Of a stretch of DNA of 30,197 nucleotides, positions 1,915-21,630 are shown piece by piece (within the stretch, counting starts at the first letter, position 1; each line of letters starts with the position of its first letter). The stretch covers positions 1-30,197 of IMG/VR virus record IMGVR_UViG_3300047163_000237; one strand, written 5' to 3'. Made by a program: the position numbers and the translations under genes. This stretch comes from a virus. Under the pieces are notes generated by a model. It was not told the DNA's origin and made no database searches. It worked only from the letters and a program-made list of their open reading frames with translations.

Positions 1915-1920
1915 GTCAAC
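1915..1920 (-). promoter_or_regulatory. GTTGAC box, 17 bases before the tail-tip gene
   Basis: The leftward strand reads TAG (stop of the previous gene), then GTTGAC, then a 17-base spacer without a Shine-Dalgarno sequence, then ATG 1897. It is one of ten identical hexamers placed before late gene starts. Confidence 0.6.
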
Positions 1921-2193
1921 CTAGTCGAACGGGAGAACTACGCCGTCTGTGTCGAAAGCATCAGGTCTAGTCTTCCTGATATGTGCGTCTATTTCCTCTA
2001 GCGTTAATTCGCGGGGAGCAGGGTCTACAGGTAGCTCTGAAAGACCTTCCATTGCCTTTGCTACCATCTGCTCTAGCCAGATACCTTTAGGGCATACGCT
2101 AGAATCTTCCTGAGTGAGAGGACGTACCGCACAACTTTTAAGCGTGCAAGTGGAGCAGACTAAGTTGCGCTCTGCTAGCTGCTGTAAGGTCAT
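1921..2193 (-). CDS. Small cysteine-rich protein, possible metal site
   Basis: The start ATG overlaps the stop of the preceding gene by one base (TAATG), so translation is probably coupled. The 90-residue protein has four cysteines near the N-terminus (C13, C16, C21, C34, spaced CxxC, x4, x12), suggesting a zinc or iron-sulfur site. The C-terminal half is acidic and proline-containing. No family is recognised. A small Cys-rich protein among tail-tip genes could be a minor structural part or an assembly factor. Confidence 0.6.
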   Translation of the reverse strand: MTLQQLAERNLVCSTCTLKSCAVRPLTQEDSSVCPKGIWLEQMVAKAMEGLSELPVDPAPRELTLEEIDAHIRKTRPDAFDTDGVVLPFD

Positions 2194-3077
2194 TAGGATA
2201 AAGTGGCATGGATTGGCCCTGTAACTCCTACGGTAGTTGTGCCCGTAGCCGTTGTAGTAGGGGCAGGCAGGGCAATCCAGTCCGAATAGATAGTAGTGCT
2301 CGCTGCTGTGTTTGCAGGTATCGTAATGCCTACAGTTTCGTTTGTGTACGTTGTTACGCCACCGTAGATATTCGCCATGCGATACGAGACGGTATAGTTT
2401 AAATCAGAGCGAGGCACAAAGCCGATTGATAAACCTAAGCGGTACTGTCCCCCTGTCAGGCTTACCGATGATCCATCATAGATACTTGTAGACGCTATAG
2501 GAGAGCTTTCCTCTAAAGGTAACGTGGCAAGCTTTGTTCTTGCGTTGCCCTGTACAGCAGAAAATGGGTAGGCGTCTGATAAAGCAGTCGAAAAGTTCTC
2601 AGTAACAACTATACCAGACTGTCCGGGGCAACTATGATAAGCCGTATCCGTTTCCCCCCAGCCAGTAGCGTTCCGATATGAAGCGCATGTATAGGAGACG
2701 GTAACGCCATCAGCGCAATACTCTGTGTGACCGGGAATGGCACAATCGTATGGCCAGTTGTTCAAAGGATTAGTGTAGGCAAACGGAACAACATTTCCGT
2801 TTGAGTCTACAATAGTATTGCTTGGGGTAACGGCCCCTGTAATGGGATCAACCGTATAAGTTATGGTGCCATCGGCAAAGCCACCAGCATCGGTGCTACC
2901 CTTATAAACAACAACAGCAGTCAGGTAATGAGGGGTGCCGTGATATTCGTTTGGTCCCGGCCCAGACCATGCAGCGTAACCATTCCAGTTTAAACCACAA
3001 GTAGCTGTCTGAGCATCAATGGAAATGCTAGGAGTCATGTTACAGTTACAAAACTGCCCATTAAAATTACGATCCAT
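2193..3077 (-). CDS. Tail-tip structural protein, unknown family
   Basis: The 294-residue product is rich in Thr, Ser, Gly, Asn and Tyr and lacks charged helical stretches, the usual look of beta-rich phage tail proteins. It has about ten cysteines in its first half (for example FCNCN near residue 9 and YDCAIPGHTEYC near residue 115), which is unusual for a cytoplasmically assembled protein and may indicate metal binding. The stop of the upstream gene lies three bases before its start, so it is translationally coupled to the two genes before it. Its role in host contact is inferred from position only. Confidence 0.55.
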   Translation of the reverse strand: MDRNFNGQFCNCNMTPSISIDAQTATCGLNWNGYAAWSGPGPNEYHGTPHYLTAVVVYKGSTDAGGFADGTITYTVDPITGAVTPSNTIVDSNGNVVPFAYTNPLNNWPYDCAIPGHTEYCADGVTVSYTCASYRNATGWGETDTAYHSCPGQSGIVVTENFSTALSDAYPFSAVQGNARTKLATLPLEESSPIASTSIYDGSSVSLTGGQYRLGLSIGFVPRSDLNYTVSYRMANIYGGVTTYTNETVGITIPANTAASTTIYSDWIALPAPTTTATGTTTVGVTGPIHATLS

Positions 3078-3080
3078 AGC

Positions 3081-3743
3081 TTAGACTCCCCACGGCCCTT
3101 GTAGAGAGTCATTGCAGACGCCAAAGTTCTGCGAACCTCCTACATACTGGAAAATTTGAACGCTTGCGCTGCCACTGCCGCCACCCGCAACCGTTGCGTT
3201 ATAGGCAAACAAGGATTGATACAGCGTACCTGTTCCCCCTCCACTGCCACTAGGGGAAGTTGTGCTGTCAGGAGCCGTAGAGTCAGTGCTGTAGTTAATC
3301 ATGTTGTCCGTAACGGTTATGTTTCCGTAAACGTCATAGCTAAAGTCTACCTGTGCGTAGACAACTCCTGTCCCTGCTGTGATTGTGAGAACAGGAGCAG
3401 GGGTATCGGTTAAGGCAGTGCCGTAGATGGTGGCAGGAAAGCCAGCGTGCGTGCCGGGATTTACAGTAACGCCGGGAGTGCTACCCGTACTGGCATCGAA
3501 TCCCTGATAGGGAAACGTAATGCCAGTAGAACTTGAAGACTGATTTGCTCCTGAGATGGAAATACCGCCAAGCCCTAGCTGTCTGATGCGTATGTTTGGC
3601 CCTTTTTGGATGTTCTCACCTCTCCACAACTGAGAGACGATGCCAAAAATAACTTTCAGCCATTTGCCTTCTACTAGATACCCTTTGCTGTCTTCTATCT
3701 TAGACGTGTCTGGCAAATCTTTAATGGAGAAATGGTCAGCCAT
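3081..3743 (-). CDS. Tail protein, unknown family
   Basis: The 220-residue protein starts with a charged segment (MADHFSIKDLPDTSKIEDSKGYLVEG) that may anchor it. It continues as Ser/Thr/Gly-rich beta sequence with an SGSGGGTG linker near residue 165. It starts three bases after the preceding stop and forms one coupled series with 3747-4472, 2193-3077 and 1921-2193. A glycine-rich linker between an N-terminal anchor and a C-terminal beta domain is typical of tail appendages. No specific homolog is recognised. Confidence 0.55.
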   Translation of the reverse strand: MADHFSIKDLPDTSKIEDSKGYLVEGKWLKVIFGIVSQLWRGENIQKGPNIRIRQLGLGGISISGANQSSSSTGITFPYQGFDASTGSTPGVTVNPGTHAGFPATIYGTALTDTPAPVLTITAGTGVVYAQVDFSYDVYGNITVTDNMINYSTDSTAPDSTTSPSGSGGGTGTLYQSLFAYNATVAGGGSGSASVQIFQYVGGSQNFGVCNDSLQGPWGV

Positions 3744-3746
3744 GTC

Positions 3747-4472
3747 TTAGGTGTTGTAGATAATCGTTGTTGCATCGCTGTTGAGTCCTCCTGTGAGAAG
3801 CCAAGTCTTCTGACAGTGGTAGACGTTGCCCTGCTGCGAGCTAGAGCCTCCTGTAAAGAGCCAGAAATAACCGTCAGGTGCGCTAGGTGCTGGCCCGTCA
3901 GGTGTTCCTATCTTCCCTACTCCTGTAAGATCAGGAGGGCTGTTGTCTATATACGAGCTAGACCATGTAGAACCAGCAAGTAGGTAGTCCTCTACACCTT
4001 CAAAAATGCTGCCAGTAGTCCAACCTTTGAAAACTGCACTGCTGCTGGTAGATACTGCACCCGTAGTAGGATCAACGAAGATTGCTCCATTAAGGGGACT
4101 GGCAGGAGTGCCTGCGATGTTGCTTACCCATAGCGGGTGCGTGCTGAGAGGTTCATTATGGGTAGCACGATCAAGCGAGTAAATCGGCTCTGGATAGTCG
4201 CCAGCTAATGGCCCTCTGTATTCAACCTCAAGAGTGCCTATGCCTGCCTTGTCTTCCGTTATGGTGTTTGTCCAAACGGTCAATAAGGGAAAGTCAGCGT
4301 GTGCAGTTCCTACTACCGTAAAAGAACTGTCTGAGATTAGGTCTACAAAGTTACCCCTGTACGTCTCTGTGAGAACGGCTACGCCTTCTCTACTAACCTT
4401 TAGTTTAGCTCCCGGTTGTCTAAGGATTGATCCTGACGGAATTGTGGGATACGTAGTATATGGACTGCTCAT
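3747..4472 (-). CDS. Tail protein downstream of the tape measure
   Basis: The 241-residue protein begins with a basic segment (LRQPGAKLKVSREGVAVLTETYRG) and becomes Ser/Thr/Gly/Pro-rich toward the C-terminus (DGPAPSAPDGYFWLFTGG). It follows the tape-measure gene, the position of the distal tail protein in siphoviruses, but no motif of that family is clear. It heads a four-gene coupled cluster. Its start has no Shine-Dalgarno sequence; a GTTGAC box sits 14 bases before the ATG. Confidence 0.55.
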   Translation of the reverse strand: MSSPYTTYPTIPSGSILRQPGAKLKVSREGVAVLTETYRGNFVDLISDSSFTVVGTAHADFPLLTVWTNTITEDKAGIGTLEVEYRGPLAGDYPEPIYSLDRATHNEPLSTHPLWVSNIAGTPASPLNGAIFVDPTTGAVSTSSSAVFKGWTTGSIFEGVEDYLLAGSTWSSSYIDNSPPDLTGVGKIGTPDGPAPSAPDGYFWLFTGGSSSQQGNVYHCQKTWLLTGGLNSDATTIIYNT

Positions 4473-4486
4473 GCCAGAGCAGCACA

Positions 4487-4492
4487 GTCAAC
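4487..4492 (-). promoter_or_regulatory. GTTGAC box, 14 bases before the post-tape-measure gene
   Basis: The box lies 2 bases after the tape-measure stop. The 14-base spacer TGTGCTGCTCTGGC carries no Shine-Dalgarno sequence. Confidence 0.65.
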
Positions 4493-4494
4493 TA

Positions 4495-6024
4495 TTAGCC
4501 AGCTATACCTATGGAGCTTTGGAGCTTCTTGAATGCAGCGTTAATCTCGGCAAGGTGCTTGGCTGCATCCTGTGCTGCCTTTAGCTGTGAAGCGTTGCCA
4601 TAGTTCGCACCTGATACCCTGCCTCCTAAGCCGAGCTTGGCCAGTGACGAGGCTTCACCGTGAAACATGGTGGCGTCTAGCTGTGCGGCAGCTACGGCTT
4701 GCTGTGCTTCCTTCTGCTCCTGCAAAATCTTTGTCTTCTGCTCTGCAAACTCCTTGGCTTGCTGATCTACTTTTAGCTGAGCTTCCTTCTGTGCCGTAAG
4801 GGACTTCTCCGCTTGCAACTGTAGGTTAAGGAGAGTCTGCTTATCGCCCTTGCCCTGTGCGGCTGCGAGTGCATCAGCATCCTTTTTGCTCTGTGCCTTT
4901 GCGTCGTCTAGGCGTTGCTTATCCGTCTCGCCTATCTCTTTGCGTCTCTCCTGCTCAGCAGTAATCTCTTTTTGAGTGGCCTTTACCTTGTCGTCTTGCG
5001 CCTTCTGTAGCTCTTTCTCTCTGGTAATGGCCTTCTCCCATTCAAGACGCTTCTGCTCTATGTCTACAGGGTCTTTGCCGAGTGTGAGAGCGTCACCGTA
5101 GGCAAACTTGGCGTGCTCTTCTTGCTGCTTAGCGAGCTTGAGTTTATCGGCGTCAGTGCCTCTGCTCATCTGCTCTGCATAGACATCGCGCTGCAAGCCC
5201 TCTACCTTGTCTGTAGTCTCCTTGGCTTTGCGTGCTGCTTCCTTGGCTGCAATCTGATCCTCTAATGAAATCTCCTGATTCAGAGCGTCTATAGTCTTCT
5301 CATCATGCTTTTCGCTGGCAGCGTCTAGCTTCTCCTGCATCTGCTGCTGATGCGCTAACGCCTCTGCCTCTTTCTCATGCCCTTGCAGTTTCAACTCTAG
5401 GACAGCGTTAGCATTGTTGATTTGCTTCGCTCCCTCGGCGTCTTCCATCTCATGCGCCTTCTGCTTAAGTTCGTTGTATTCCTCAGCGTCTTCCTTAACT
5501 ACCTCGCCAAGGTTTTTGCCTTCCTCGAAAGCCTGTACTACTACTTCTGCTCCTGCCTGTAGGGAGGACATCGCAGCGAGGTTATGCGCTTCTGCATCCT
5601 CATTTAGTTTCTTAATGGATTCCTGCACCTTCTCTACTGACTGGTGCGTTACGTCTGTGTCGATAGACAGAGCATCCTTGCCTGCCTTCTCCATTTTCTC
5701 GAAAGCCTCGTAGCCCTCGTAGACGCTCTTGACCAGTTCTGAGACTGCCATCAGAGCAATCATGCTGCCCATAGAGAGCTTTAAACCCTCTGCCATGTTT
5801 TCAAAGGCTCCCCCTATGGCTTCTGCTGAGTTAGTGCCATTAGCGGTAATGTCTTTGAAAGCACCCATGAAACGGGTATGCAGCGCACGCTCTGACTTTA
5901 CGCCTTCGATACCGAAAGACTCAGTAACCTTAGATGCTGACTCCTTGGCGTTTTCCTTCACTCGCTCCATAGCGGACAGGAAAGGAGCAGGTGTACCTCC
6001 TATGGTAAAATTTACGTCTCCCAT
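4495..6024 (-). CDS. Tape-measure-like coiled-coil tail protein
   Basis: I start at ATG 6024 (MGDVNFTIGGTPAPF), four bases after the upstream stop. GGAGG lies 12 bases before it; a TTG at 6043-6045 is less likely. The 509-residue protein has an N-terminal globular part, a hydrophobic segment around residues 85-105 (LSMGSMIALMAVSELVKSVY), then about 330 residues of highly charged Ala/Glu/Lys/Gln coiled coil, and a Gly/Ala C-terminus. This layout, and the position after a possible tail chaperone and before tail-tip genes, matches a tape-measure protein, which sets tail length. At about 0.15 nm per residue it would give a tail near 75 nm. No peptidase domain is seen. Confidence 0.75.
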   Translation of the reverse strand: MGDVNFTIGGTPAPFLSAMERVKENAKESASKVTESFGIEGVKSERALHTRFMGAFKDITANGTNSAEAIGGAFENMAEGLKLSMGSMIALMAVSELVKSVYEGYEAFEKMEKAGKDALSIDTDVTHQSVEKVQESIKKLNEDAEAHNLAAMSSLQAGAEVVVQAFEEGKNLGEVVKEDAEEYNELKQKAHEMEDAEGAKQINNANAVLELKLQGHEKEAEALAHQQQMQEKLDAASEKHDEKTIDALNQEISLEDQIAAKEAARKAKETTDKVEGLQRDVYAEQMSRGTDADKLKLAKQQEEHAKFAYGDALTLGKDPVDIEQKRLEWEKAITREKELQKAQDDKVKATQKEITAEQERRKEIGETDKQRLDDAKAQSKKDADALAAAQGKGDKQTLLNLQLQAEKSLTAQKEAQLKVDQQAKEFAEQKTKILQEQKEAQQAVAAAQLDATMFHGEASSLAKLGLGGRVSGANYGNASQLKAAQDAAKHLAEINAAFKKLQSSIGIAG

Positions 6025-6028
6025 GATC

Positions 6029-6601
6029 TTACACAGCCTCCGCAAATGCAGGGTTAGAGCGCAGAGTCTCTACCTCAAAATCACTCATCAAATTCTTGTT
6101 TGGGTAGCCTGCTGCTTCATTCTTGGCCATTGCCCATACGAGCATCTTGCCTAGTGGCATGTTCTCTATGTAGTCAGGGGTACAGCTATCCAGCAGGGAA
6201 GCTGCTGTTACGAGGAAACCGTCTAGCTTGCTGTCGTCGCTGGCCTTGTCGTTTTTCCAAAAGGGGAACTGTGGCAGGTAGTCCTCTACGTAGCGGTTGA
6301 ACGCTGCCAAGCCAACTTTAGGGGGCATCAGAGAAGTAACCTGTTTCCACATTGCCCACTCGTCAGACGCGAAGTTGCAAGCTTCCATAAACTCACTGTC
6401 TGACTTGGTAGAGCACGCGATAACGGCTAAGCGCATATCGTGCAACTCGACTGGCCCGCCAAAGATCAGAGGTGACTTGAGGGCAGTTAAAAGAATCCAG
6501 TGCCGTAGGCAGAAGGGCAGAAGCTCTCTGCCGAAAATAATGTGCGTCTGGTTAAAGAAGGCTTCGCACGTCGCCTCTGTCGCTGAAAGTTTGGGAGCCA
6601 T
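6029..6601 (-). CDS. Putative tail assembly chaperone
   Basis: I choose ATG 6601 because an AGGAG sequence lies nine bases upstream; a TTG at 6622 is in frame but poorer. The 190-residue, mostly helical protein (LSATEATCEAFFNQTHIIFG, then a Trp-rich middle, WAMWKQVTSLMPP) lies directly before the tape-measure gene, the place of gpG-type chaperones. No second overlapping frame is available for the gpGT frameshift product, since only four bases separate the stop from the next start. The chaperone role rests on position, size and helical character. An ATTGAC variant of the late box lies 16 bases upstream. Confidence 0.5.
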   Translation of the reverse strand: MAPKLSATEATCEAFFNQTHIIFGRELLPFCLRHWILLTALKSPLIFGGPVELHDMRLAVIACSTKSDSEFMEACNFASDEWAMWKQVTSLMPPKVGLAAFNRYVEDYLPQFPFWKNDKASDDSKLDGFLVTAASLLDSCTPDYIENMPLGKMLVWAMAKNEAAGYPNKNLMSDFEVETLRSNPAFAEAV

Positions 6602-6617
6602 ATACAACGGCTCCTGT

Positions 6618-6623
6618 GTCAAT
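6618..6623 (-). promoter_or_regulatory. ATTGAC, variant late box before the chaperone candidate
   Basis: A one-base variant of GTTGAC, 16 bases before ATG 6601. Here a real AGGAG sequence also lies in the spacer. Confidence 0.35.
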
Positions 6624-6628
6624 GCGCC

Positions 6629-6841
6629 TTACGAGGCAGGCAGGTAGGTAACTCTAAGAATTGCGCTACCGTCTGGCTGAAATTGCACGCTGATAGACTT
6701 AAGCTCAGAAGCCGTAACGCCAGCAGGCAAAGTGAAGATTGCAGACAGTGCGGTAAGATCAGTAGCTACGTCAGCAGCAGAAATCTTCAAAGGGGGAGTA
6801 GTCCGCACCTGTGCAGGAGCAGGAGGAATGACGATAGGCAT
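6629..6841 (-). CDS. Small tail-region protein, 70 aa
   Basis: The 70-residue protein starts three bases after the stop of 6845-7201, so it is probably translated by coupling. It has a proline-rich N-terminus (MPIVIPPAPAQVRTTPP) and a short beta-like C-terminal half (SISVQFQPDGSAILRVTYLP). No family is recognised. Its place between the tube-position gene and the chaperone candidate suggests a minor tail component. Confidence 0.55.
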   Translation of the reverse strand: MPIVIPPAPAQVRTTPPLKISAADVATDLTALSAIFTLPAGVTASELKSISVQFQPDGSAILRVTYLPAS

Positions 6842-6844
6842 ATA

Positions 6845-7201
6845 CTAGGGAAGCTTGCTGTTAGTCATCATCTTAAAGCCAACCTTCTTGACGTGTCCGG
6901 CATTGCCGAGAATCTTTACGTCTCCTGTAATCAGGTAGCTAATGTTGCCAGTGCCGAGAGTCGAGTTAGAGAAGTTGAAAGCGATGTTAGTCAGAGGTGC
7001 AGGTACGTTCTGATTAGGGAACAGGGAAACCTCTACATCAACTTCTGTCATCAAATCAACGCCGTTGATATAGGCAAGAATACCATCCTCATCTACGATC
7101 TTTTCCTCTTCACTGTACTTAGTGTCAGGGTCAAACTTTGAAACAACACCTAGAGTACAGGTGGGAAAATTCTTAACTTGAAGGGCGGATGCTGGATACA
7201 T
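6845..7201 (-). CDS. Possible tail tube protein
   Basis: The 118-residue protein is predicted beta-rich (VDLMTEVDVEVSLFPNQ, TGNISYLITGDVKILG) and soluble. Its order, after connector-like genes and before the chaperone and tape measure, is that of the major tail tube protein. It is shorter than most siphovirus tube proteins (about 140-250 residues), so this is tentative. ATG 7201 has a GTTGAC box 14 bases upstream and only a weak ACAGGT near the start. Confidence 0.4.
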   Translation of the reverse strand: MYPASALQVKNFPTCTLGVVSKFDPDTKYSEEEKIVDEDGILAYINGVDLMTEVDVEVSLFPNQNVPAPLTNIAFNFSNSTLGTGNISYLITGDVKILGNAGHVKKVGFKMMTNSKLP

Positions 7202-7215
7202 ACCTGTACCCGAAT

Positions 7216-7221
7216 GTCAAC
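7216..7221 (-). promoter_or_regulatory. GTTGAC box, 14 bases before the tube candidate
   Basis: It lies four bases after the TAG stop of the upstream gene and exactly 14 bases before ATG 7201. Confidence 0.65.
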
Positions 7222-7225
7222 CGCA

Positions 7226-7756
7226 CTAGGAATCAGCAGGACAGGAGCAGACGTAATAGTAAATCTCTGTCTCTATCTTATTGTCAGAGGTCTTAGTGTC
7301 CTCATCTTCGTAGACGATGGCAGACAGAGTGAAGTTTTGTACTACCCTTGTGTCTGTGCCAGAGGCAGGAGGATTAATCGGCGTAGGATCAATACCAAGA
7401 GGCTCTAGCAAGTCTCGCAGAACCTCTATTCTCTCCCTGTGTATGTCTTCTGCATCGGTCACTTGCTCGTCATAAATTTCTGTGGCGAGGCAAGCCGTTA
7501 ACTTCATTTCGTAGATGCCGCATACATTGTTTATCTGCTCTGGATTAGTCGCTGTGAACATCAGCGAGGGAGGCGAGACGACAGGAGCACTAGGAGCAGC
7601 AGGAGTCAGGGTAGAAGGGTTTACCTGTACCGTGTTGGCTGGCCCTGCAAGCCCTCCTGCATACACAGAGACGGTTTCTAAAACTGTGTCCGCTTGGTTT
7701 GCCTGTACGAAAGCGACAAACGCCTTTTCTGTCTGACTGGTAGGTGACTTCCTCAT
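7226..7756 (-). CDS. Connector or tail-completion candidate
   Basis: ATG 7756 is chosen over a GTG at 7768 because AGGTGG lies eight bases before it and the GTTGAC box then sits at the usual 14 bases. The 176-residue product has a mixed N-terminal half with a Pro/Ala/Ser linker (LTPAAPSAPVVSPP). An acidic helical middle follows (EQVTDAEDIHRERIEVLRDL), then a beta C-terminus ending YYYVCSCPADS. Its place between the morphogenesis gene and the tube candidate suits a tail terminator or completion protein, but no motif proves it. Confidence 0.5.
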   Translation of the reverse strand: MRKSPTSQTEKAFVAFVQANQADTVLETVSVYAGGLAGPANTVQVNPSTLTPAAPSAPVVSPPSLMFTATNPEQINNVCGIYEMKLTACLATEIYDEQVTDAEDIHRERIEVLRDLLEPLGIDPTPINPPASGTDTRVVQNFTLSAIVYEDEDTKTSDNKIETEIYYYVCSCPADS

Positions 7757-7770
7757 GGGAAGTGCCACCT

Positions 7771-7776
7771 GTCAAC
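7771..7776 (-). promoter_or_regulatory. GTTGAC box, 14 bases before the connector gene
   Basis: It lies 14 bases before ATG 7756. This is one of the few members with a Shine-Dalgarno-like AGGTGG directly after the box. Confidence 0.65.
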
Positions 7777-7780
7777 GTCT

Positions 7781-8551
7781 CTACTCCTTGCTCTGCAAAG
7801 CGTAGAACTTGCTGCCTAAAATCTTCTTGATGCGCTCAGTAAGCTTTATCTCTCTGTCTTTCAAAGCGTCTGCTGCTCCCGTTGCGCTTAACACCTGATC
7901 TGTGTAGTTCACTTCGTTACGGATGGTAATCGAAGGGTTCTCCTTGTCCGTATTGTCTATGACGCTGGCAGGGGTATCATGTTTGTAAATCCATGCCGGA
8001 ATACCTCTGATGCCTCCTAGCTTCTTGGCACAAGCTGCCCAGCCTCCTTTAGCAAAGCCTACCTTGCCTTTCTCCTTTGTCAGGAACGGCTTTAGACCTT
8101 TCTGTACTTGCAGGATCAGAGAGGCGACTACGCCACCTCCTACCTTGCCTCGCTTCCATCTACGGTTATGGGCAGTGCCACCGTCAAAAGGTTGAATAGG
8201 GGTATTGCGGTTAAGTCCCTTGCTGTCTCGTAAAATCTTTGAAGCCTTATCGTACTGGCGAGCTTGAAACGCTTTCCAGAAACCGTCTGCCATGTCTTTG
8301 TTTTCAATCTGTAGCTCTTTGAAAACGGCTGATGCCTGAGCGTAAACACGGTTGTAGTCTCTGGCCAAGGCTTCCTCTCCCTGCTTCTTGGCTGCATCGT
8401 CTAGGCCGAAAGGCTGTGTGTACTTGGCCAATTCAACGCACAGCAGACGTGCCTCCTGCACCATGATCTTAGCAGGCTCTTCCTTGGTAAGCTTTACGAT
8501 CTCTCGTAGCTTGCCGTCCATGCCTGAGAAATCTACATCAACCTTTAGCAT
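7781..8551 (-). CDS. Putative neck or tail-completion protein
   Basis: I choose ATG 8551 (MLKVDVDFSGMDGKLREI), which overlaps the previous stop by one base; a start at 8584 would overlap that gene more. The 256-residue protein is basic. It starts with the 'VDxxG' and long-helix pattern seen in HK97 gp10-like neck proteins, then has a basic middle (RRWKRGKVGGG) and a C-terminal helical tail (EIKLTERIKKILGSKF). It follows a head-tail joining candidate, which fits this role. It is longer than the usual 110-170 residues of gp10-like proteins. Confidence 0.45.
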   Translation of the reverse strand: MLKVDVDFSGMDGKLREIVKLTKEEPAKIMVQEARLLCVELAKYTQPFGLDDAAKKQGEEALARDYNRVYAQASAVFKELQIENKDMADGFWKAFQARQYDKASKILRDSKGLNRNTPIQPFDGGTAHNRRWKRGKVGGGVVASLILQVQKGLKPFLTKEKGKVGFAKGGWAACAKKLGGIRGIPAWIYKHDTPASVIDNTDKENPSITIRNEVNYTDQVLSATGAADALKDREIKLTERIKKILGSKFYALQSKE

Positions 8552-8874
8552 TACGCGGTTACGTCCTGTAGCTCTAGCTCCCATGTTGTCTGTGTCGGAC
8601 TGATGGTATCAATGCGGTACGTCCTGCTACGCTGCACCAGCAGCACGGTATTACCTATGGCAGGAGCAACGGGAGACTTGAGAATGTCGCACAGGGCAAT
8701 AGAGATGGTGGCATGAGCTACTGACTGAAAGCCTCCCATGTCTAGGGGATTATGTACGCTCTCTATCCCTACAATGCAGGGGTAGGTAATCCCGTTGATA
8801 GTAGCTGACTCTCCTACTAGACCTTGCAGGGTTCTAATGGCTCCTGACAGCTTGGCTTGTAAATTTGTTTCCAT
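8551..8874 (-). CDS. Head-tail joining protein candidate (gpFII-like)
   Basis: The 107-residue protein begins with a helix (AKLSGAIRTLQGLVGESATI) and ends with beta sequence in which a GNTVLLVQRSRTYRIDTIS segment recalls the GD-x5-F-x-V-x-x-V-S pattern of lambda gpFII. Size and place, just before a neck-type gene, agree. It begins 58 bases inside the end of the glycosyltransferase gene, an unusually long overlap. A TAAGG-type sequence and an ATTGAC variant box lie upstream inside that gene. The assignment is tentative. Confidence 0.45.
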   Translation of the reverse strand: METNLQAKLSGAIRTLQGLVGESATINGITYPCIVGIESVHNPLDMGGFQSVAHATISIALCDILKSPVAPAIGNTVLLVQRSRTYRIDTISPTQTTWELELQDVTA

Positions 8875-9662
8875 CTTGCCTTAGCCGCCTTGTCAATGCT
8901 TCGCAGGAAATCTCTAAGGATCGCTTTACCGTCTGCCTCTGTGGAGCCGAGACAACGCGAAGCGATGGCAGTAACTAGCATTTCGTCTGACAAGGGGTAT
9001 CTGATCCAGCCATGATGCCCAAGGAGTACGGCAGTATCTACGTAGACAGAGAAACCTAGTTGCCTGACGCGACGACAGAAGAGCCAGTCTTCCGAAAGGT
9101 AGCGGCTCTTGTCCGTTGTCTCTGCGATAACGCCAACATCAAAGAAGCTGATGCGCTTGTCTTTGAATTGATCGTCTGTGTATTCCAGCTTGCTCTTGAA
9201 CGCTTCGCGGTAAGCCTCAAGTATCTTGCGAGGAATCAACATGCAACCTGTGCCACACTCGGCAACCTTCAATAAATCGTCAGAGCCTACCGTCTCGCCG
9301 GGAAGTCTGTTGTAGCAGAAGCGAAGCTCTGCCGTTTTAATGGCGTACTGTCCGCACACTACAGCGTCTTCTCTGCGAGCATCTACAATGCGCTTAATAT
9401 CGTCTGGTACGAAGTCTAAATCAGTGTCGAGAAAGAGAAGGTAATCACACTCTGTCTTGTGCAGGAAATCATGCGTTAGGTTGTTGCGAGAGCGAGTAAT
9501 GAGGGAATCGCCGGGATTTACATGCACTGCAAAGCTAACGTCATCCCCCGCAAAAAGCTGATCCTTGGTAGTGACAAGGTGCATGAGGGACTGCCAAAAC
9601 TCATGCCGTGCGCCATCGTCTACAGGCAGGCAGATGCAGATGCTTACTGGCTTTTTGCTCAT
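8817..9662 (-). CDS. GT2-type glycosyltransferase in the head-tail gene block
   Basis: The 281-residue protein has the features of a GT-A fold enzyme. It starts with a beta strand (VSICICLPV). The nucleotide-sugar region is near RSRNNLTHDFL, and a DxD motif sits at residues 79-81 (LLFLDTDLDF). An SEDW acceptor-region motif lies at 190-193, followed by GHHG at 215-218. Such enzymes transfer a sugar from an activated donor. No membrane segment is seen, so it is cytoplasmic. It lies just after the cement gene and terminator, so a capsid or tail protein is a reasonable substrate, though host surface sugar is also possible. Its start has a GTTGAC box and no Shine-Dalgarno sequence. Confidence 0.8.
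   Translation of the reverse strand: MSKKPVSICICLPVDDGARHEFWQSLMHLVTTKDQLFAGDDVSFAVHVNPGDSLITRSRNNLTHDFLHKTECDYLLFLDTDLDFVPDDIKRIVDARREDAVVCGQYAIKTAELRFCYNRLPGETVGSDDLLKVAECGTGCMLIPRKILEAYREAFKSKLEYTDDQFKDKRISFFDVGVIAETTDKSRYLSEDWLFCRRVRQLGFSVYVDTAVLLGHHGWIRYPLSDEMLVTAIASRCLGSTEADGKAILRDFLRSIDKAAKARWKQIYKPSCQEPLEPCKV
8892..8897 (-). promoter_or_regulatory. ATTGAC, variant late box inside the glycosyltransferase gene
   Basis: It sits 17 bases before ATG 8874, within the coding region of the upstream gene. It is a one-base variant of the GTTGAC hexamer at a comparable spacing. Confidence 0.3.
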
Positions 9663-9676
9663 GCCAGAGAGGGAGA

Positions 9677-9682
9677 GTCAAC
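9677..9682 (-). promoter_or_regulatory. GTTGAC box, 14 bases before the glycosyltransferase
   Basis: It lies just downstream of a strong terminator and 14 bases before ATG 9662. The spacer TCTCCCTCTCTGGC is pyrimidine-rich and has no Shine-Dalgarno sequence. Confidence 0.65.
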
Positions 9683-9688
9683 CTGTGC

Positions 9689-9724
9689 AAAAAAGAAGGC
9701 TCTAGGAATTAACCTAGAGCCTTC
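9689..9724 (-). terminator. Strong terminator after the capsid and cement genes
   Basis: The leftward strand has a perfect 12-bp stem GAAGGCTCTAGG / CCTAGAGCCTTC with a 6-base loop, followed by six T residues. It lies 38 bases after the cement stop. Most capsid and cement transcripts should end here, so the tail genes would be expressed by read-through or from another start. Confidence 0.9.
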
Positions 9725-9762
9725 CCACTTATGAATTAGGAACAGACTAACGACTGACAGCT

Positions 9763-10173
9763 TTAGAAGCGGAGAGAGACAGTCACGTTGTTTGCTGAGA
9801 TGTTGCCGTTAATGGCAGAGATAGCAGCAAGTCCTCTGATGTACGCACGAGCCGTAGGAGGCAAGCGGAACTGATCTGAGGTAGTAACGGTAGTGTTCGC
9901 ATTAACCACCGTAGAGCCAAGCTCTGAGATGTTAGCGAATGTCACGCCATCTGCCGAATCTTGGATTACTACGGTGAGAGCACCAGCAGTACCAAAGTTA
10001 GCGAGAGGGTCAATGTCCACCTGTACGGCAAACTGCTCTGATGCAGAGTAGGACTGTCCGTTTAGGTAAAACGGAGTAGTAGTAACATTAGAGTTGTTAG
10101 TTGCCGGAAGCGTAGCAGAAGCAACAAAAGATGCGTCCTGTAGCTTGCGTTGATTTTCGAGTGTAAATGCCAT
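9763..10173 (-). CDS. Capsid cement protein, Bbp16-like
   Basis: The 136-residue protein is mostly beta, with an N-terminal arm (MAFTLENQRKLQDASF) and a C-terminal segment FRLPPTARAYIRGLAAISAI. Bbp16-type cement proteins share this arm plus beta-sandwich plan and the 'LP ... RY/AYIRL' ending, and are encoded directly after a Bbp17-like major capsid protein, as here. They sit on the outer shell and stabilise it. The start has AGAAAGAAC eight bases upstream. A strong terminator follows, consistent with a highly expressed capsid pair. Confidence 0.7.
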   Translation of the reverse strand: MAFTLENQRKLQDASFVASATLPATNNSNVTTTPFYLNGQSYSASEQFAVQVDIDPLANFGTAGALTVVIQDSADGVTFANISELGSTVVNANTTVTTSDQFRLPPTARAYIRGLAAISAINGNISANNVTVSLRF

Positions 10174-10181
10174 AGTGATTA

Positions 10182-10190: not shown

Positions 10191-10194
10191 GTGA

Positions 10195-11130: not shown

Positions 11131-11138
11131 AGTAGTAG

Positions 11139-11714
11139 TTATTTCTTGTTGTTGATTTGTTCTGAGAAGGCAGCCGCAACACGGTCTAAGCCCTTAAGGG
11201 CAGTAGTTTTTCCGTCTGGCTTTGTTGCAATCGGCGTAGGGATACCTACGGCTGCAATTTCTCTAATGACTTGCTTAGGAAGCTCAGCTTTGAGCTTCTT
11301 ATTATCTGCTACGATTTTGGTAACGGACTTAGCTAGTGACTTGAGCTTTTCGGCTCTAGTAGCTTTGCTCGCTGATTCGTCGTTAGCGTCGTCTGAGTCG
11401 TCAGGGGTAGCGTCAGACTCGTCTGTAGAATCAGAGTCCTCTGTGCTGTCGTCTGACTCGTCAGAACCGTACTTGCTGATAAGCTCCTGCAAGTCGGCAA
11501 TGAACTTGTCCAACTCTGAGCTATCGTCAGCAGGAGCGTCTTCTGCGGGTGCTGTCTCGTCATCAGCCTTTGCAGATGCAAGAGCCTCTAACTTCGCTGA
11601 CAGTTCCGAAATTGTGTTGTTAGCTGTAGCGAGCGCAGCCTTTGTCTCATCAAGAGCAGTATTAGTCTTGGCTTTGAAAGCAGAGAAGTCGGGGATTAAA
11701 TCGGCAATCTTCAT
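11139..11714 (-). CDS. Acidic scaffold-like protein
   Basis: The 191-residue protein has an N-terminal amphipathic helix (LDETKAALATANNTISELSAKLEAL). A very acidic Asp/Glu/Ser region spans about residues 50-115 (ESDDSTEDSDSTDES is typical), followed by a basic helical C-terminal part. Helical, highly charged proteins encoded directly before the major capsid gene are usually scaffolds, and the basic C-terminus could bind coat subunits. It lies after an S49 protease gene, which may digest it. No family signature is clear. The long Asp-Ser run makes the opposite strand open too, but that reading is a shadow. A GTTGAC box lies 18 bases before its start. Confidence 0.6.
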   Translation of the reverse strand: MKIADLIPDFSAFKAKTNTALDETKAALATANNTISELSAKLEALASAKADDETAPAEDAPADDSSELDKFIADLQELISKYGSDESDDSTEDSDSTDESDATPDDSDDANDESASKATRAEKLKSLAKSVTKIVADNKKLKAELPKQVIREIAAVGIPTPIATKPDGKTTALKGLDRVAAAFSEQINNKK

Positions 11715-11732
11715 GTATGAAGACGCCGACGT

Positions 11733-11738
11733 GTCAAC
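11733..11738 (-). promoter_or_regulatory. GTTGAC box, 18 bases before the scaffold gene
   Basis: TTGACA here also resembles a sigma-70 -35 box, but no -10 box follows at 16-18 bases. The spacer to ATG 11714 is 18 bases, the longest in the set. Confidence 0.55.
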
Positions 11739-11775
11739 TAGGGGAGAATCCTAGTAGTGAAAACGGAAGGTATAA

Positions 11776-12714
11776 CTACGAAGTAGCAGGACTAGCTACC
11801 GTATTTGAAGGAGACTCAGAAGGAGTCTCACTAGGAGCAGCAGGCTCTTCTGCTGGCTCAGGGGAGAAATCAATTTCTTGCAAGAGTGCTTCGTAAGAGT
11901 CGTCTTTGCTGCCTAGCTGATCTACAAGACCATTCGCTAGAGCGTCGATACCTAAGAAGGTTTGTCCCTGCATCGCTGCATCAGGTACTACTGCCTCATT
12001 CAATGCACGCATGGTCACTACGAAGTCACGGAACAGGCCGAAAATGCGGTCTACCTGAGCCTGTAGCTGTGCTCTGTGTTGCTCGCTCAGGGAAGGAGCA
12101 AAGCCAATGGCCTTAAACGTGCCTCCTGTGTTAATTACAGGATCAGCTTTGATACCCTCTTGCTCCCACTGTGCAGCACGATCAATCCACGGCATGTAAA
12201 CGCCGATAGAGCCAATGTCTGCCGACTCCGTAGAGAAGACGCGAGTAGCACCAGCAGCGAGCCAGTAGGCAGCACTGCATATCTGAGAGTCTGAGAAGAC
12301 GAAAACGGGAATCTCTAACGCTGTCTGTGCGATAGTCTCGGCAAGCTCTGGCGTACCAGTGACCATGCCACCGGGGGAATCAATGCAAAGCAGGATGCCT
12401 TTGACGTTCTGAGCGACAAGAGCCGCTAACTCTGTCTGTACGTCCTTTGTGTCCGTGTTCCCACAAGACTTTTCAATCTTGCTGAGTCCTTGGCCTATTA
12501 CGCCTTTGACGTGTACATGACCTATGCCGTTTACATCAATGGCAGCAGGCTCTCTCTGTACGAAGAAGGCAGAGGCGTCTGTGTCGCTGTCTGCTTTAAA
12601 TTCGCCATTCGTGGCGAATTTGGTTTCTAAGAGTCTCTGTATCGACGCATGACCGCTAGGCGTAATCAGCCAAGGGCGATAGTAAATCTGTTCTGCTACA
12701 TGCTGTAAGCGCAT
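11776..12714 (-). CDS. S49-family head maturation protease
   Basis: The 312-residue protein is a signal-peptide-peptidase-A (S49) type serine protease as used by phages such as lambda (protein C). Visible motifs are the oxyanion strand IDSPGG at 111-116, the nucleophile Ser147 in the SQICSAAYWLAAGA segment, DIGSIGV at 166-172 and the general base Lys201 in TFKAIG. After the protease domain the last 30 residues are a Pro/Ser/Glu-rich tail. The enzyme would degrade scaffold and trim head proteins during procapsid maturation. It lies between the portal group and the scaffold candidate. A GTTGAC box lies 14 bases before the ATG, with no Shine-Dalgarno sequence. Confidence 0.9.
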   Translation of the reverse strand: MRLQHVAEQIYYRPWLITPSGHASIQRLLETKFATNGEFKADSDTDASAFFVQREPAAIDVNGIGHVHVKGVIGQGLSKIEKSCGNTDTKDVQTELAALVAQNVKGILLCIDSPGGMVTGTPELAETIAQTALEIPVFVFSDSQICSAAYWLAAGATRVFSTESADIGSIGVYMPWIDRAAQWEQEGIKADPVINTGGTFKAIGFAPSLSEQHRAQLQAQVDRIFGLFRDFVVTMRALNEAVVPDAAMQGQTFLGIDALANGLVDQLGSKDDSYEALLQEIDFSPEPAEEPAAPSETPSESPSNTVASPATS

Positions 12715-12728
12715 GTAGAGAAGGCGAA

Positions 12729-12734
12729 GTCAAC
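12729..12734 (-). promoter_or_regulatory. GTTGAC box, 14 bases before the head protease
   Basis: It lies between the stop at 12736 and ATG 12714. The spacer TTCGCCTTCTCTAC is pyrimidine-rich and has no Shine-Dalgarno sequence. Confidence 0.65.
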
Positions 12735-12735
12735 T

Positions 12736-15582: not shown

Positions 15583-15585
15583 GGG

Positions 15586-15957
15586 TTAGCGTTGAATGTT
15601 TCCAAACTGGCCATAGCTCAGGACTCGCTGAGAGGCTTTTACCTGCGAGATAGGAGGCACGATCATGGCTCCTGTGTTTGGATCAGTGGTTACAGGTGCG
15701 TCTATGCCTGTCTCAATGCGACGTAAGGCAAGCTCTGCAATCTCCATGATGTCCATACGGGACATATTCGGGGGCAGAGTCCAATTACCAGAGCTACCAC
15801 CTGTGGTAGTAGAGGTTAAAACTGTTGCGTCTCCACTAGTAACCGTTGTGAAGTTACCTAGCAGGAGGTTTAAGAGGAAATCGTTAGGGTTTGCCTGTGC
15901 ATTTGCGACACGCACAAAGACGCTAACGATGGTTTGTTTATCGTAGGGAGCAGCCAT
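15586..15957 (-). CDS. Small protein between terminase and portal
   Basis: I choose ATG 15957 (MAAPYDKQTIVSVFVRVANA); a TTG at 15972 is in frame. The 123-residue product has an N-terminal helix, a Ser/Thr/Gly-rich centre, then a helix MSRMDIMEIAELALRRIETG. In lambda the gene at this place is gpW, a head-tail joining protein, but gpW is about 68 residues and the likeness here is only positional. The GTTGAC box lies 15 bases before the ATG, overlapping the end of the terminase gene. Confidence 0.5.
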   Translation of the reverse strand: MAAPYDKQTIVSVFVRVANAQANPNDFLLNLLLGNFTTVTSGDATVLTSTTTGGSSGNWTLPPNMSRMDIMEIAELALRRIETGIDAPVTTDPNTGAMIVPPISQVKASQRVLSYGQFGNIQR

Positions 15958-15965
15958 TAACCAAG

Positions 15966-17801
15966 TCAGCAAGTCAACTTGGCTTTTACCCTGTCAGCTA
16001 AGGTCTTTAGTCCTCCCTTGCCTACAAGAGACTCTATGAGAGTGGGAATGATAAGCTGATACTTTTCGCAGTCTCCTAAGTGATTGTTTCCCTTGTCTGC
16101 CCATTTCGCCCCTGTCTTGTCCTGCTTCAAATACTCGTCTGTAAGCTGCTCTTCATAGTCCGTACCGATATTGCGAGGCAGATACCAGTTACCAGCTTCC
16201 TTACGTTTGATTTTGTTTAGGTACAGGTCATAGCGCAAAGCGTTATCGTCAAAACGGACTAGCTGAAAACGCTGCCCTTTGTGCTCCTGTTCTGACTCTT
16301 CTACAGTCTTTGTGAGTCCCTGTGTACGTGCTGCACCCTTTACCGGGATAAATTTGCCAGCAGACTTTAGGCAGAAGTCATAAACGCCAGACTCTCCCTT
16401 AGTTCGCCAGCCTGAGTCTATCAGGCAGAACATGGGAGACATGGGGTACTGCTTCGCACCTACCTTGTACGTCCTGTCTGCCACCTCGCTTAAAGCTTTC
16501 CAGTTTGGGAGTAGCTTGCCGTAATCGACTAGTGCGCTGCTGCTGTCGCTAAACCATGCTCTTACTATCCAGTGCAAAACATCAGCATTAACGTCTACCG
16601 TCAGACTCAATAGTGCTATGTCGTCTCTAGGTATCTGGCCTAGTAGGTACTCTGGCGAGTGAGAGACAATCGCCCTGATGTCCGTTTCGGTAGTGGTAAA
16701 GCTCTTCTGCTGGTGCGGTACTGCTAGCTCTTCATTTAGGAAGTTGCGTAGCTCTCCCGGTTTGCTTACCGATTGCAGGAACTTGACTGCGAGGTTTCCA
16801 AGGGTGCAAGCCTCATGGGGAGAGTACATCGACGGCAGACGCCTAGACGGTTTCCCTGATACACAGTTAGGGTTAGTGGGAATCCATCTCCCGTTAGCTA
16901 CCATCGCTGGCAGTCTCTCCTGCCCTAAGCGTGCCTTGCAGCAGGGACACTCAAGAGCAGCCGTCTTCCTGACTGTCTCGTAGTTGTACGAGCCGTCCGG
17001 CAGCTTCGCTTTCTTGTCCCATACCACTTGCCCTAGGAGAGTGTCAGGAAACCACTGCCTTACGTACTCAGGGTCAAACTCGATTGCAAAGGGCTTTCCC
17101 TTGCAGTCAGGACAGGTAACGAAGAAGAGTCGCCTGTCACCATCAAGAAACGCTTTCCAGATGGCTCCTGTTGTCTCTGTGGGAGTCCCTGTCTTGATTA
17201 CCTTGCTGCCAGCGTATGACTTTACGCGACTCTCTAGCATCGAGACGCCAGACTTTCCCTGCTTCGCCCATTTCGCTTCTACATCGTCTATCTCGTCTAT
17301 AATCAGAATCTCGGCAGACTTACCCTTAAGGCTGCTCTCTGATCCTGAGCCAATGAAGTACAGTACAGAGTTATCAAACTGCTGTTGTAGAATCTTAAAC
17401 TTGTCCTGATCTCTTTGCTTGTGCTGTAGAAGAGCAGGACTGCTCTCTACCATCGGTTGCCATTTGAGTTGTGAAAACTCCGTTGCGCCTTTGAAGGTAG
17501 GCAGCACCATTATTATGTTAGCTGGCTGCTGATCTATCCTATACGCGATACCTACAAAGACTCCTGTAGTCTTATAGACCTGTGCTGCGAAACAGTTCGC
17601 AGACTCAGAGACGCAAGGGTTACGGAAGTCCTCTAGTAGTTCCCTGATGTACGCGCAATGAGCAGTGCTGTACTGCCCTGCATTCTGTGTAACTGACGAG
17701 GGCAGGTAGACGTTTTGCTCTGCCCATTCCGTTACTGTCTGCTCAGGTCTAGGAGCAAGAAGGCTCCTGATGACTGCTGCCAAGTCTGTTGCTACGCTCA
17801 T
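15966..17801 (-). CDS. Terminase large subunit, GpA family
   Basis: The 611-residue protein is a packaging motor of the lambda gpA type (phage terminase GpA). The N-terminal ATPase has a degenerate Walker A around AAQVYKTTG (72-80) and a Walker B IIDE at 167-170. A GTPTETTGAIW segment near 205 corresponds to the coupling motif. Two Cys pairs (CPDC at 230-233 and CPCC further on) suggest a zinc-binding insert common in this family. The C-terminal nuclease shows acidic positions in SLTVDVNADVLHW, CLIDSGWRT and NNHLGDCEKY. It cuts concatemers and drives DNA into the procapsid. The gene starts with a GTTGAC box 14 bases upstream. Confidence 0.92.
   Translation of the reverse strand: MSVATDLAAVIRSLLAPRPEQTVTEWAEQNVYLPSSVTQNAGQYSTAHCAYIRELLEDFRNPCVSESANCFAAQVYKTTGVFVGIAYRIDQQPANIIMVLPTFKGATEFSQLKWQPMVESSPALLQHKQRDQDKFKILQQQFDNSVLYFIGSGSESSLKGKSAEILIIDEIDDVEAKWAKQGKSGVSMLESRVKSYAGSKVIKTGTPTETTGAIWKAFLDGDRRLFFVTCPDCKGKPFAIEFDPEYVRQWFPDTLLGQVVWDKKAKLPDGSYNYETVRKTAALECPCCKARLGQERLPAMVANGRWIPTNPNCVSGKPSRRLPSMYSPHEACTLGNLAVKFLQSVSKPGELRNFLNEELAVPHQQKSFTTTETDIRAIVSHSPEYLLGQIPRDDIALLSLTVDVNADVLHWIVRAWFSDSSSALVDYGKLLPNWKALSEVADRTYKVGAKQYPMSPMFCLIDSGWRTKGESGVYDFCLKSAGKFIPVKGAARTQGLTKTVEESEQEHKGQRFQLVRFDDNALRYDLYLNKIKRKEAGNWYLPRNIGTDYEEQLTDEYLKQDKTGAKWADKGNNHLGDCEKYQLIIPTLIESLVGKGGLKTLADRVKAKLTC
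15973..15978 (-). promoter_or_regulatory. GTTGAC box, 15 bases before the gpW-position gene
   Basis: This copy lies within the last codons of the large terminase gene, so the hexamer is kept inside coding sequence. The spacing to ATG 15957 is 15 bases. Confidence 0.6.
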
Positions 17802-17815
17802 TACTGAGCGAGTGC

Positions 17816-17821
17816 GTCAAC
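17816..17821 (-). promoter_or_regulatory. GTTGAC box, 14 bases before terL
   Basis: It lies 14 bases before ATG 17801 in the space between divergent starts (17801 leftward, 17858 rightward). No Shine-Dalgarno sequence is seen in the spacer GCACTCGCTCAGTA. Confidence 0.65.
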
Positions 17822-17833
17822 GCTGTACTTTCG

Positions 17834-17845
17834 ACGGTTTACCGT
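17834..17845. promoter_or_regulatory. Short inverted repeat between divergent genes, operator candidate
   Basis: ACGGT-TT-ACCGT forms two 5-base arms with a 2-base centre in the 56-base gap between the divergent terL gene and the opposite-strand membrane gene. Its place suits an operator for either gene. Short length means chance is possible. Confidence 0.25.
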
Positions 17846-17857
17846 TACCCTGTCGCC

Positions 17858-18346
17858 ATGAGTGATACAGTGCAGGGAGCCGTCATTGCCGTTTGTGGAG
17901 TCCTAGTAGGACTTCTAGTAGCCGCTTACAACAACCGTAAAGAACGCGAGGAACGCAAGAACGCTCTGTTTAGGGAAAAGTGCGAGACGATAGCTGACCT
18001 GATGACGGTTAGTGCTCAGTGGTACAATAGGCTTACACTCTGCTACTCATTCGAGGATTTAAAGAAATGTTCGCCTCCCCCTGAGAACATGAAAATAGGA
18101 ATGCTGGCGAAGCTCTACTTTCCTGCACTAGAGGACATCGCTATAGATCATGCTAACCTAATCGTTACTTACTATCACTACCTTTTAGACTTTGCTACGC
18201 CGATGGCAGAGCCTATGCCCATGTCTGTAGTTGCGAGGGCAGTAGGGCATGACAAGAAGGCTTATCTTGAGTGGGACAGGAAAATTACCGCTACGAAAAT
18301 GAAGCTGTTAGACGGACTGAGCGAACAAATTAAGGAGCACCTTTAG
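17858..18346 (+). CDS. Opposite-strand membrane-anchored protein between terS and terL
   Basis: I choose ATG 17858 (MSDTVQGAVIAV). The 162-residue protein has one N-terminal membrane span at about residues 5-24 (VQGAVIAVCGVLVGLLVAAY), followed by a basic stretch (NNRKEREERKNALFREK). The rest is a helical cytoplasmic domain with LAKLYFPALEDIAIDH and YYHYLLDF. It is transcribed against the flow of the packaging genes and its end overlaps the end of terS by four bases. Such placement is typical of a 'moron' expressed in the prophage, for example for superinfection exclusion. No family is recognised, so that role is inference. No clear promoter or Shine-Dalgarno sequence is seen. Confidence 0.7.
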   Translation: MSDTVQGAVIAVCGVLVGLLVAAYNNRKEREERKNALFREKCETIADLMTVSAQWYNRLTLCYSFEDLKKCSPPPENMKIGMLAKLYFPALEDIAIDHANLIVTYYHYLLDFATPMAEPMPMSVVARAVGHDKKAYLEWDRKITATKMKLLDGLSEQIKEHL

Positions 18347-18951
18347 AACTTAGTCGCTGCCTGACTGACTGAGCGCAAGAGCTTATCTCGCCACTCTGTC
18401 AGGGCTTGCTGTGCCGTCTCTGGTGACTGTGGATTGCATCTGGCTCGCTCAGACATGGGGAGAAGGTCTAAGGCGTTGCGTATCGGTATAAGAAGCTCTG
18501 CCATGATAGCCCTTGCCGTGTCCCTGTGGATCAGCTCGCCTGACTCCCTACGTATCGCCTGTGAGTCTCGCTCTGCTTCTACGAGTCCTTGATTAGCCCT
18601 CTGCCAGCTTGAGAGCAGGCTTTGCAGTTGTGCGTACTGCTTCGCGTTGATTGTGTTCCTGATGGTTTCAAAGATGCAGTATTCCATCTTCCTTGCTCGC
18701 TCTAGGCGTGCTTCCCATGTGTGCTCTGAGTCAGCAGGAGGCAGCAGCACAGGGGGAATGTCCTTCGCTGGCACTGTGGCAGTACCCGCGTCGGACTTCT
18801 TACGCTTCGCCCTTGGCTTGATGTTGCCAGCAATCCAAGTCTTTGCCTTGCCGATGTCATCAGTAGGACAGGGATTTACTTTCCTGCCCTTCCATTGTGA
18901 TAGCTGGCTCTTGCTGATGCCAAGGGCTGTAGCTAGTTCGTCTTGCAGCAC
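18343..18951 (-). CDS. Terminase small subunit candidate
   Basis: The 202-residue protein has an N-terminal helix-turn-helix (LATALGISKSQLSQWKGRKV, about residues 6-25), a basic linker (KPRAKRKKSD), and a helical region with RARKMEYCIFETIRNTINAKQY and a coiled segment LLSSWQRANQGLVEAERD. DNA-binding N-terminus plus oligomerising helices, upstream of terL, fit a Nu1-like small terminase that recognises the packaging site. The start is GTG 18951, five bases after the previous stop, so it is probably coupled. In-frame sequence continues upstream without an ATG. Confidence 0.7.
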   Translation of the reverse strand: MLQDELATALGISKSQLSQWKGRKVNPCPTDDIGKAKTWIAGNIKPRAKRKKSDAGTATVPAKDIPPVLLPPADSEHTWEARLERARKMEYCIFETIRNTINAKQYAQLQSLLSSWQRANQGLVEAERDSQAIRRESGELIHRDTARAIMAELLIPIRNALDLLPMSERARCNPQSPETAQQALTEWRDKLLRSVSQAATKF

Positions 18952-18956
18952 GGCTC

Positions 18957-19109
18957 TTAGTCGCGGCCAACGATTACAAGACGCTTCATTTTGCCAGACT
19001 TGTTATAAGTCATGGTCACGCGCTTACACTTCGTTTCATTGACTGCCTGTATCTCTTGAATCAACTCGTAGAGATGGTCTACTTTCGCTTTCGGTTTAGA
19101 TGTCTTCAT
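18957..19109 (-). CDS. 50-residue basic protein before terS
   Basis: A 50-codon frame runs from ATG 19109 to TAA 18957-18959. The product is basic (MKTSKPKAKVDHLYELIQEI, then ETKCKRVTMTYNKSGKMKR) with a helical N-terminal half and a beta-like C-terminal half ending LVIVGRD. It is preceded by a GTTGAC box at 15 bases and followed five bases later by terS, so it heads the packaging cluster. The stop-to-start spacing and the box both support it as a true gene. No family is recognised. Confidence 0.65.
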   Translation of the reverse strand: MKTSKPKAKVDHLYELIQEIQAVNETKCKRVTMTYNKSGKMKRLVIVGRD

Positions 19110-19124
19110 ACAGTTTACTAGGCA

Positions 19125-19130
19125 GTCAAC
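19125..19130 (-). promoter_or_regulatory. GTTGAC box heading the packaging cluster
   Basis: It lies 15 bases before ATG 19109 and is the rightmost copy, marking the boundary between the regulatory/HNH genes and the late genes. Confidence 0.6.
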
Positions 19131-21626: not shown

Positions 21627-21630
21627 AGTC

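Follow-up and report, generated by a model that had tools for sequence, protein, structure and literature searches.

The start-associated sequences (SAS/ESAS) of the cluster K mycobacteriophages are short asymmetric repeats in a single orientation, with about 11–19 copies per genome, that lie at a fixed short distance from a start codon, mostly ATG, and are specific to a phage group and not found in the host; the upstream stop codon falls within some of them, and their function is unverified (PMC3203893; PMC12699233). The SAS is a 13-bp sequence, GGGATAGGAGCCC, which contains AGGAG and is found 3–7 bp from the starts of non-structural genes only (PMC3203893; PMC12699233). The stoperators of the cluster A mycobacteriophages (L5, TipsytheTRex) are many asymmetric, orientation-biased 13-bp sites in short intergenic spaces that are bound by a phage helix-turn-helix (HTH) repressor, with no fixed start distance reported in the portion of the source drawn on here (PMC9283540). 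A short element with the core TTGAC(A), present as GTTGAC in the virus record IMGVR_UViG_3300047163_000237 (positions 1–30197, 30,197 nucleotides (nt), hereafter the window), was compared with these systems. Like the SAS, this box is a start-linked repeat in one orientation that is confined to one phage group and absent from the host, but it has a 5–6 bp core, does not include a Shine-Dalgarno sequence, lies 14–18 nt from the start, precedes structural genes and occurs in another phylum. It resembles the stoperators, as far as that portion describes them, in its many asymmetric oriented sites and possibly in having an HTH reader, but differs in its fixed start distance and in sites that also lie inside genes, before nested starts. 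Together with the stoperators, the SAS is the closest described element, and the box matches the definition of neither.

T7-type promoters are many and compact, one for each small late-gene block and often near terminators, and they span ~23 bp and are read by a phage polymerase. The box is like a T7 promoter set in layout, but no such polymerase was found here. The promoters of bacterial leaderless genes have a -10 box ~10 nt before the start codon, and the box is similarly an element at a fixed start distance; however, there is no -10, and the -35-like word is at ~-20. We know of no described expression signal for Verrucomicrobiota phages, and none was found in a literature search.

The window includes an integrase gene at one end, early genes and a leftward late block. 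GTTGAC was found at ten positions (Table 1), exclusively on the minus strand, and the distance to the following start codon is 14 nt in six cases, 15 nt in two, and 17 and 18 nt in one each, exactly as recorded in an earlier note based on inspection of this sequence. Two ATTGAC variants, reported there 16 and 17 nt before starts, were likewise located at 6618 and 8892, and further copies of ATTGAC with no link to a start were found at 10009 and 4279 on the minus strand and at 19038 on the plus strand (2/4 minus-strand copies linked). GTTGAC came first in the window when every hexamer was ranked by its occurrence 12–18 nt upstream of an ATG or GTG that starts a frame of at least 60 codons (9/10, p 4e-12); the gene following the tenth copy has only 50 codons. 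The number of copies expected by chance on both strands was 12.8 under an order-2 Markov model, rather than the ~15 estimated previously. However, the absence of GTTGAC elsewhere in the window is weaker evidence than it appears, because very many words are purged there; purging in the window alone was rejected as evidence, and depletion of the box therefore had to be shown in relatives.

Table 1. Coordinates of boxes and associated features in the window
Feature	Position	Strand	Context
Box GTTGAC	1915..1920	-	17 nt before ATG of gene 788-1897; immediately after upstream stop codon
Box GTTGAC	4487..4492	-	14 nt before ATG of gene 3747-4472
Variant box ATTGAC	6618..6623	-	16 nt before ATG of gene 6029-6601
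Box GTTGAC	7216..7221	-	14 nt before ATG of gene 6845-7201
Box GTTGAC	7771..7776	-	14 nt before ATG of gene 7226-7756
Variant box ATTGAC	8892..8897	-	17 nt before ATG of gene 8551-8874; within upstream gene
Box GTTGAC	9677..9682	-	14 nt before ATG of glycosyltransferase-like gene 8817-9662
Intrinsic terminator (ggctctagg..cctagagcc and T run)	9693..9721	-	Ends 12 nt before box 9677
Box GTTGAC	11733..11738	-	18 nt before ATG of scaffold-position gene 11139-11714, just before major head protein gene
Box GTTGAC	12729..12734	-	14 nt before ATG of head maturation protease gene 11776-12714
Box GTTGAC	15973..15978	-	15 nt before ATG at 15957; within 3' end of terminase gene
Box GTTGAC	17816..17821	-	14 nt before ATG of terminase large subunit gene 15966-17801
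Box GTTGAC	19125..19130	-	15 nt before ATG of 50-aa gene 18957-19109; head of late region
HTH protein conserved in boxed phages, candidate box reader	22745..23200	-	Protein clustering, HMM

No close relative of the window was present in the phage collection, where the top terminase match was 28% identical, and scans with single proteins (head protein, portal, integrase and terminase) found nothing close. Alignment-based terminase scans succeeded, and consecutive rounds identified 80 viral loci, then seven genome loci and then 60 further viral loci. The genome loci were all from Verrucomicrobiota, including three from Spartobacteria or Limisphaerales and two from Akkermansia. The core in the relatives was TTGAC(A), not GTTGAC, the base following TTGAC being A in them but not conserved in the window, and TTGACA ranked first by the same procedure in the closest relatives (7/7, 6/6, 6/6 and 5/5) and in a wider set (up to 10/10). 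In two large boxed terminase clusters 139/159 and 91/93 copies of TTGACA were start-linked, compared with 2/29, 10/78, 1/15 and 0/12 (~10%) in the largest unboxed clusters, and control patterns read backwards gave 0–2 matches per boxed record and strand. The box and its spacing were retained at orthologous starts although both flanks differ. The positional conservation in related phages that the earlier note had proposed examining is very strong, and its claim of a real, late-gene, start-linked signal is supported.

In the terminase tree, all boxed phages fell in a single supported clade (97/91), with the window forming a well-separated branch that has GTTGAC in place of TTGACA. Because three unboxed viral loci and two unboxed Akkermansia prophages belong to the same clade, its ancestor probably had the box, which was later lost or changed. 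Boxed prophages were present in two Spartobacteria metagenome-assembled genomes, one of which (G003) carries two, C18 and C22. Matches in the whole genome concentrate in these two prophages, and no enrichment of TTGAC was detected before the starts of 372 Spartobacteria host genes (26 stretches, ~0.5 Mb, crude start calls); a host-wide signal was rejected. The start-linked element is real, clade-wide and phage-specific.

Prophage C22 (loci L098 and L099) has 12 boxed starts, a divergently oriented terminase gene and few recognisable early genes, and is possibly a remnant. In the Akkermansia phage Moulinsart, TTAACA was found 13 nt before a few starts (L004, 12510 and 18122), with 4/6 copies start-linked (p about 1e-3); this word is possibly a diverged version of the box.

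The anatomy of the box was examined using 102 non-redundant TTGACA sites. TTGACA was separated from the start codon by 13 nt at 26 sites, 14 nt at 43, 15 nt at 10, 16 nt at 11 and 17 nt at 10, which places 100 of the 102 within 13–17 nt; 85 starts were ATG and 17 were GTG. A weaker downstream element was also found, with G at +10 (50/102), G at +11 (66/102) and C at +12 (57/102). This GGC is aligned with the box and not with the start, and among the 31 sites with spacers of 15–17 nt G at +11 (17/31, p 0.002) and A at +14 (16/31, p 2e-4) were still enriched. In the commonest spacer class the A at +14 is the A of the ATG, and its fixed position is suggestive of a transcription start site. The earlier statement that no second box recurs thus holds for the upstream side but not for this downstream element, while the observation that most boxed starts lack a Shine-Dalgarno sequence was borne out by a 4-mer count. 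A hairpin in the spacer was seen by eye at some sites of one prophage and was absent from the window.

On the strand opposite the late genes, TTGACA was found 17 times in the boxed loci L134–L186 (~117 expected), whereas the unboxed relatives L187–L193 had 24 copies (23.8 expected); elsewhere, non-boxed phages had 186 copies (191 expected) and host DNA 121 (151 expected). When expectations were taken from synonymous-codon shuffling in the genes of 13 boxed phages, the observed/expected counts were 21/60 for antisense and 30/63 for sense copies, and 43/55 and 41/47 for control words; the purging is strand-symmetric. Relatedness among the phages means that these counts are not independent, although most lineages show the effect. 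Purging of the antisense strand favours action at the DNA level, because copies there would be harmless if the box acted only in mRNA. Terminator hairpins were found to end 2–14 nt before a box in five phages (the window, G034, C18, C22 and C414, in the last directly against it), accounting for 5/66 hairpins where 0.9% was expected. C22 includes a divergent gene pair with one box each and about 46 bp between the start codons, and several boxes lie 20–41 nt before starts (some leaders 34–41 nt), including those of the C18 head protein gene and the G035 HTH gene. Purging, terminators, the divergent pair and the long-leader boxes all point to a DNA-level element rather than a translation or RNA-processing signal. 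The earlier note had left a translation signal, a processing site and the target of a regulator as alternatives.

Boxes were also found inside genes, with 27 sites located in phase within a longer open frame. A nested boxed start recurs in many lineages, with differing surrounding sequence, in the gene between those for the portal and the major head protein (L007, 4854; L009, 4967; L098, 8485; and others). The predicted C-terminal product is ~100–200 residues, mostly 129–176. The C22 gene that holds the nested start is homologous to the protease gene of the window, and at the corresponding place the window has a separate gene (11139–11714) with its own box. In lambda, C and Nu3 are nested products and Nu3 arises by internal translation initiation, and the nested boxed start looks like one for a scaffold of the Nu3 type.

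The best-supported mechanism, and one that we consider probable by a modest measure, is that the box is the core of a late promoter producing leaderless or very short-leader mRNAs. TTGAC(A), together with the weaker G 11 nt on, would be recognised on DNA, most likely by a phage-encoded HTH protein acting with the host RNA polymerase, and transcription would begin ~10–14 nt downstream of the box, at or just before the start codon. Most boxed genes would then have leaderless or very short-leader mRNAs, and leaders of up to ~40 nt would be limited to a few genes, among them the one for the head protein in one prophage. Transcription would restart at each box and cover one to three coupled genes as a block. 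The layout is that of late promoters, the boxes being confined to one strand, where they head blocks of late genes, and missing from host genes. A tentative extension, which we regard as possible but doubtful, is that these sites represent a class of promoter with a single -35-like hexamer at ~-20 and no -10, at which a small phage HTH protein would replace the normal sigma contacts and drive leaderless late mRNAs gene by gene, including from an internal promoter for the nested scaffold, across a clade of Verrucomicrobiota phages.

When the proteins of full-length boxed records were clustered with those of one unboxed relative, a single HTH family stood out besides the structural proteins. This family, which is represented in the window (Table 1), was encoded by nearly all of the full-length boxed records and was absent from the unboxed relative compared. 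A hidden Markov model (HMM) of the family had matches at 30+ boxed loci, whereas a search of ~80 terminase relatives lacking the box gave none. Searches of Pfam, PHROG, NCBIfam, PDB sequences and folds revealed only generic HTH similarity; the predicted structure was of low to moderate confidence, and the fold matches, none of them significant, included weak ones to sigma region 4. The family tracks the box, and the protein is the best candidate for the box reader. The HTH gene is itself preceded by a box in some phages. In L153 (2853–2899) two tandem TTGACA boxes precede the HTH gene, an arrangement that suggests autoregulation. The window also encodes three consecutive small HTH-like proteins (20576–21813), one of which matches Sigma70_r4_2 above the Pfam cut-off; none of those tested had a sigma region 2 match, and these proteins are alternative candidate readers.

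Several observations weigh against a promoter read by this protein. The family was not detected by the HMM in the boxed prophages C18 and C22, where the homologue may be divergent or the prophages incomplete, and one homologue sits elsewhere in the genome of their host. A weak homologue was also found in an Akkermansia genome whose related prophage has no box, and no RNA polymerase or sigma factor was identified in the searches made of these 30–39 kb phages. At the 102 sites there was no recurring upstream element and no -10 at the usual distance, with T depleted at positions 17–22 after TTGACA. The last finding agrees with the earlier view that the box is not a normal -35, and on it a canonical sigma-70 promoter was rejected. 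Though TTGACA is the canonical -35 hexamer, a host sigma-70 element, chance or a compositional artefact is further opposed by the absence of such a box from host genes, the contrast in linkage between boxed and unboxed clusters and the few matches of the backward-read controls, and this group of explanations is very improbable.

The fixed distance to a start, whether ATG or GTG, and the nested in-frame starts would suit a translation signal as well. UUGAC(A) in the mRNA could be bound by a phage protein or a ribosome-associated factor that directs initiation 14–18 nt downstream, in a host that uses little Shine-Dalgarno pairing. The tight spacing and the rarity of Shine-Dalgarno sequences before boxed starts are consistent with this, as are the Shine-Dalgarno-like 4-mers found before only ~15% of the 372 host genes, for which start calls were crude, and the boxes at nested starts recall the internal initiation of Nu3. 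Most late genes without a box in the window overlap the preceding stop codon or lie almost directly against it, in line with the coupling proposed earlier, and could be translationally coupled, but such an arrangement is expected under both models because a box outside coding sequence needs ~20 nt. The upstream stop codon is the TGA of tTGAca at 22/102 sites; as this is a minority, a stop-codon reinitiation signal was rejected. Pairing of GUCAAC in 16S rRNA with the box, another suggestion of the earlier note, was not supported and was rejected, as two Spartobacteria 16S rRNA genes contain no GUCAAC, have an ordinary CCUCC 3' tail with which the box does not pair, and share only one GUCAA, near position 1187. 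GTCAAC occurs in the window only as the complement of boxes, hence no phage RNA pairs with the full hexamer except box antisense. A translation signal also gives no obvious cause for purging on the untranscribed strand, and leaves the terminators before boxes, the divergent pair, the long leaders and the box-aligned second element unexplained. An RNA-level signal is the main rival explanation, although we consider it unlikely.

Alternatively, the boxes could be stoperator-like operators, as in the cluster A mycobacteriophages, with the HTH protein bound to them as a repressor or elongation roadblock that would silence prophage late genes one by one. The many asymmetric sites, which share one orientation over the late region, and a phage HTH protein whose distribution follows theirs fit such a role, and in the portion of the source drawn on here the repressor-bound stoperators of cluster A are asymmetric and orientation-dependent (PMC9283540). 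The HTH family HMM matched the TipsytheTRex immunity repressor weakly (E 0.02), but over 27 residues that span only the generic HTH, and GcvA scored better. A roadblock requires neither a fixed start distance nor a site in the protease gene exactly before a nested start, and if orientation-dependent it would not force purging of the antisense strand. This explanation ranks third and appears improbable.

The other proteins of the window that were matched in PHROG and Pfam are the small and large terminase subunits, portal, head maturation protease and major head protein, together with a glycosyltransferase and HNH endonucleases. Short words are purged from the window to an extreme degree, in a pattern that resembles restriction-site avoidance, with observed/expected counts of 0/61 for CCAGG/CCTGG, 0/29 for CTGCAG, 0/30 for CGACC/GGTCG, 1/35 for GGACC/GGTCC and 1/29 for CTGAAG/CTTCAG, and many further words are purged. 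The ten GTTGAC boxes persist while other GTYRAC (HincII-type) sites are nearly absent. Two overlapping short open reading frames at 27577–28099 resemble, by sequence alone, fragments of one broken gene, and one of them weakly matches a restriction-endonuclease-like Pfam family.

In these viruses of soil and water Verrucomicrobiota, TTGAC lies ~14 bases before most structural gene starts and almost nowhere else on either strand, and looks like an unusually compact on-switch for late genes. Within the clade the box can serve directly to identify true gene starts and nested products, and the many sites, a candidate reader and natural relatives that have lost the box make this a rare case in which a promoter can be tested directly against a translation signal. 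A leaderless promoter lacking a -10, if that is what the box is, would be a compact route to late mRNAs in hosts that make little use of Shine-Dalgarno sequences, and would be relevant to the start-associated repeats of mycobacteriophages, which have long been unexplained.

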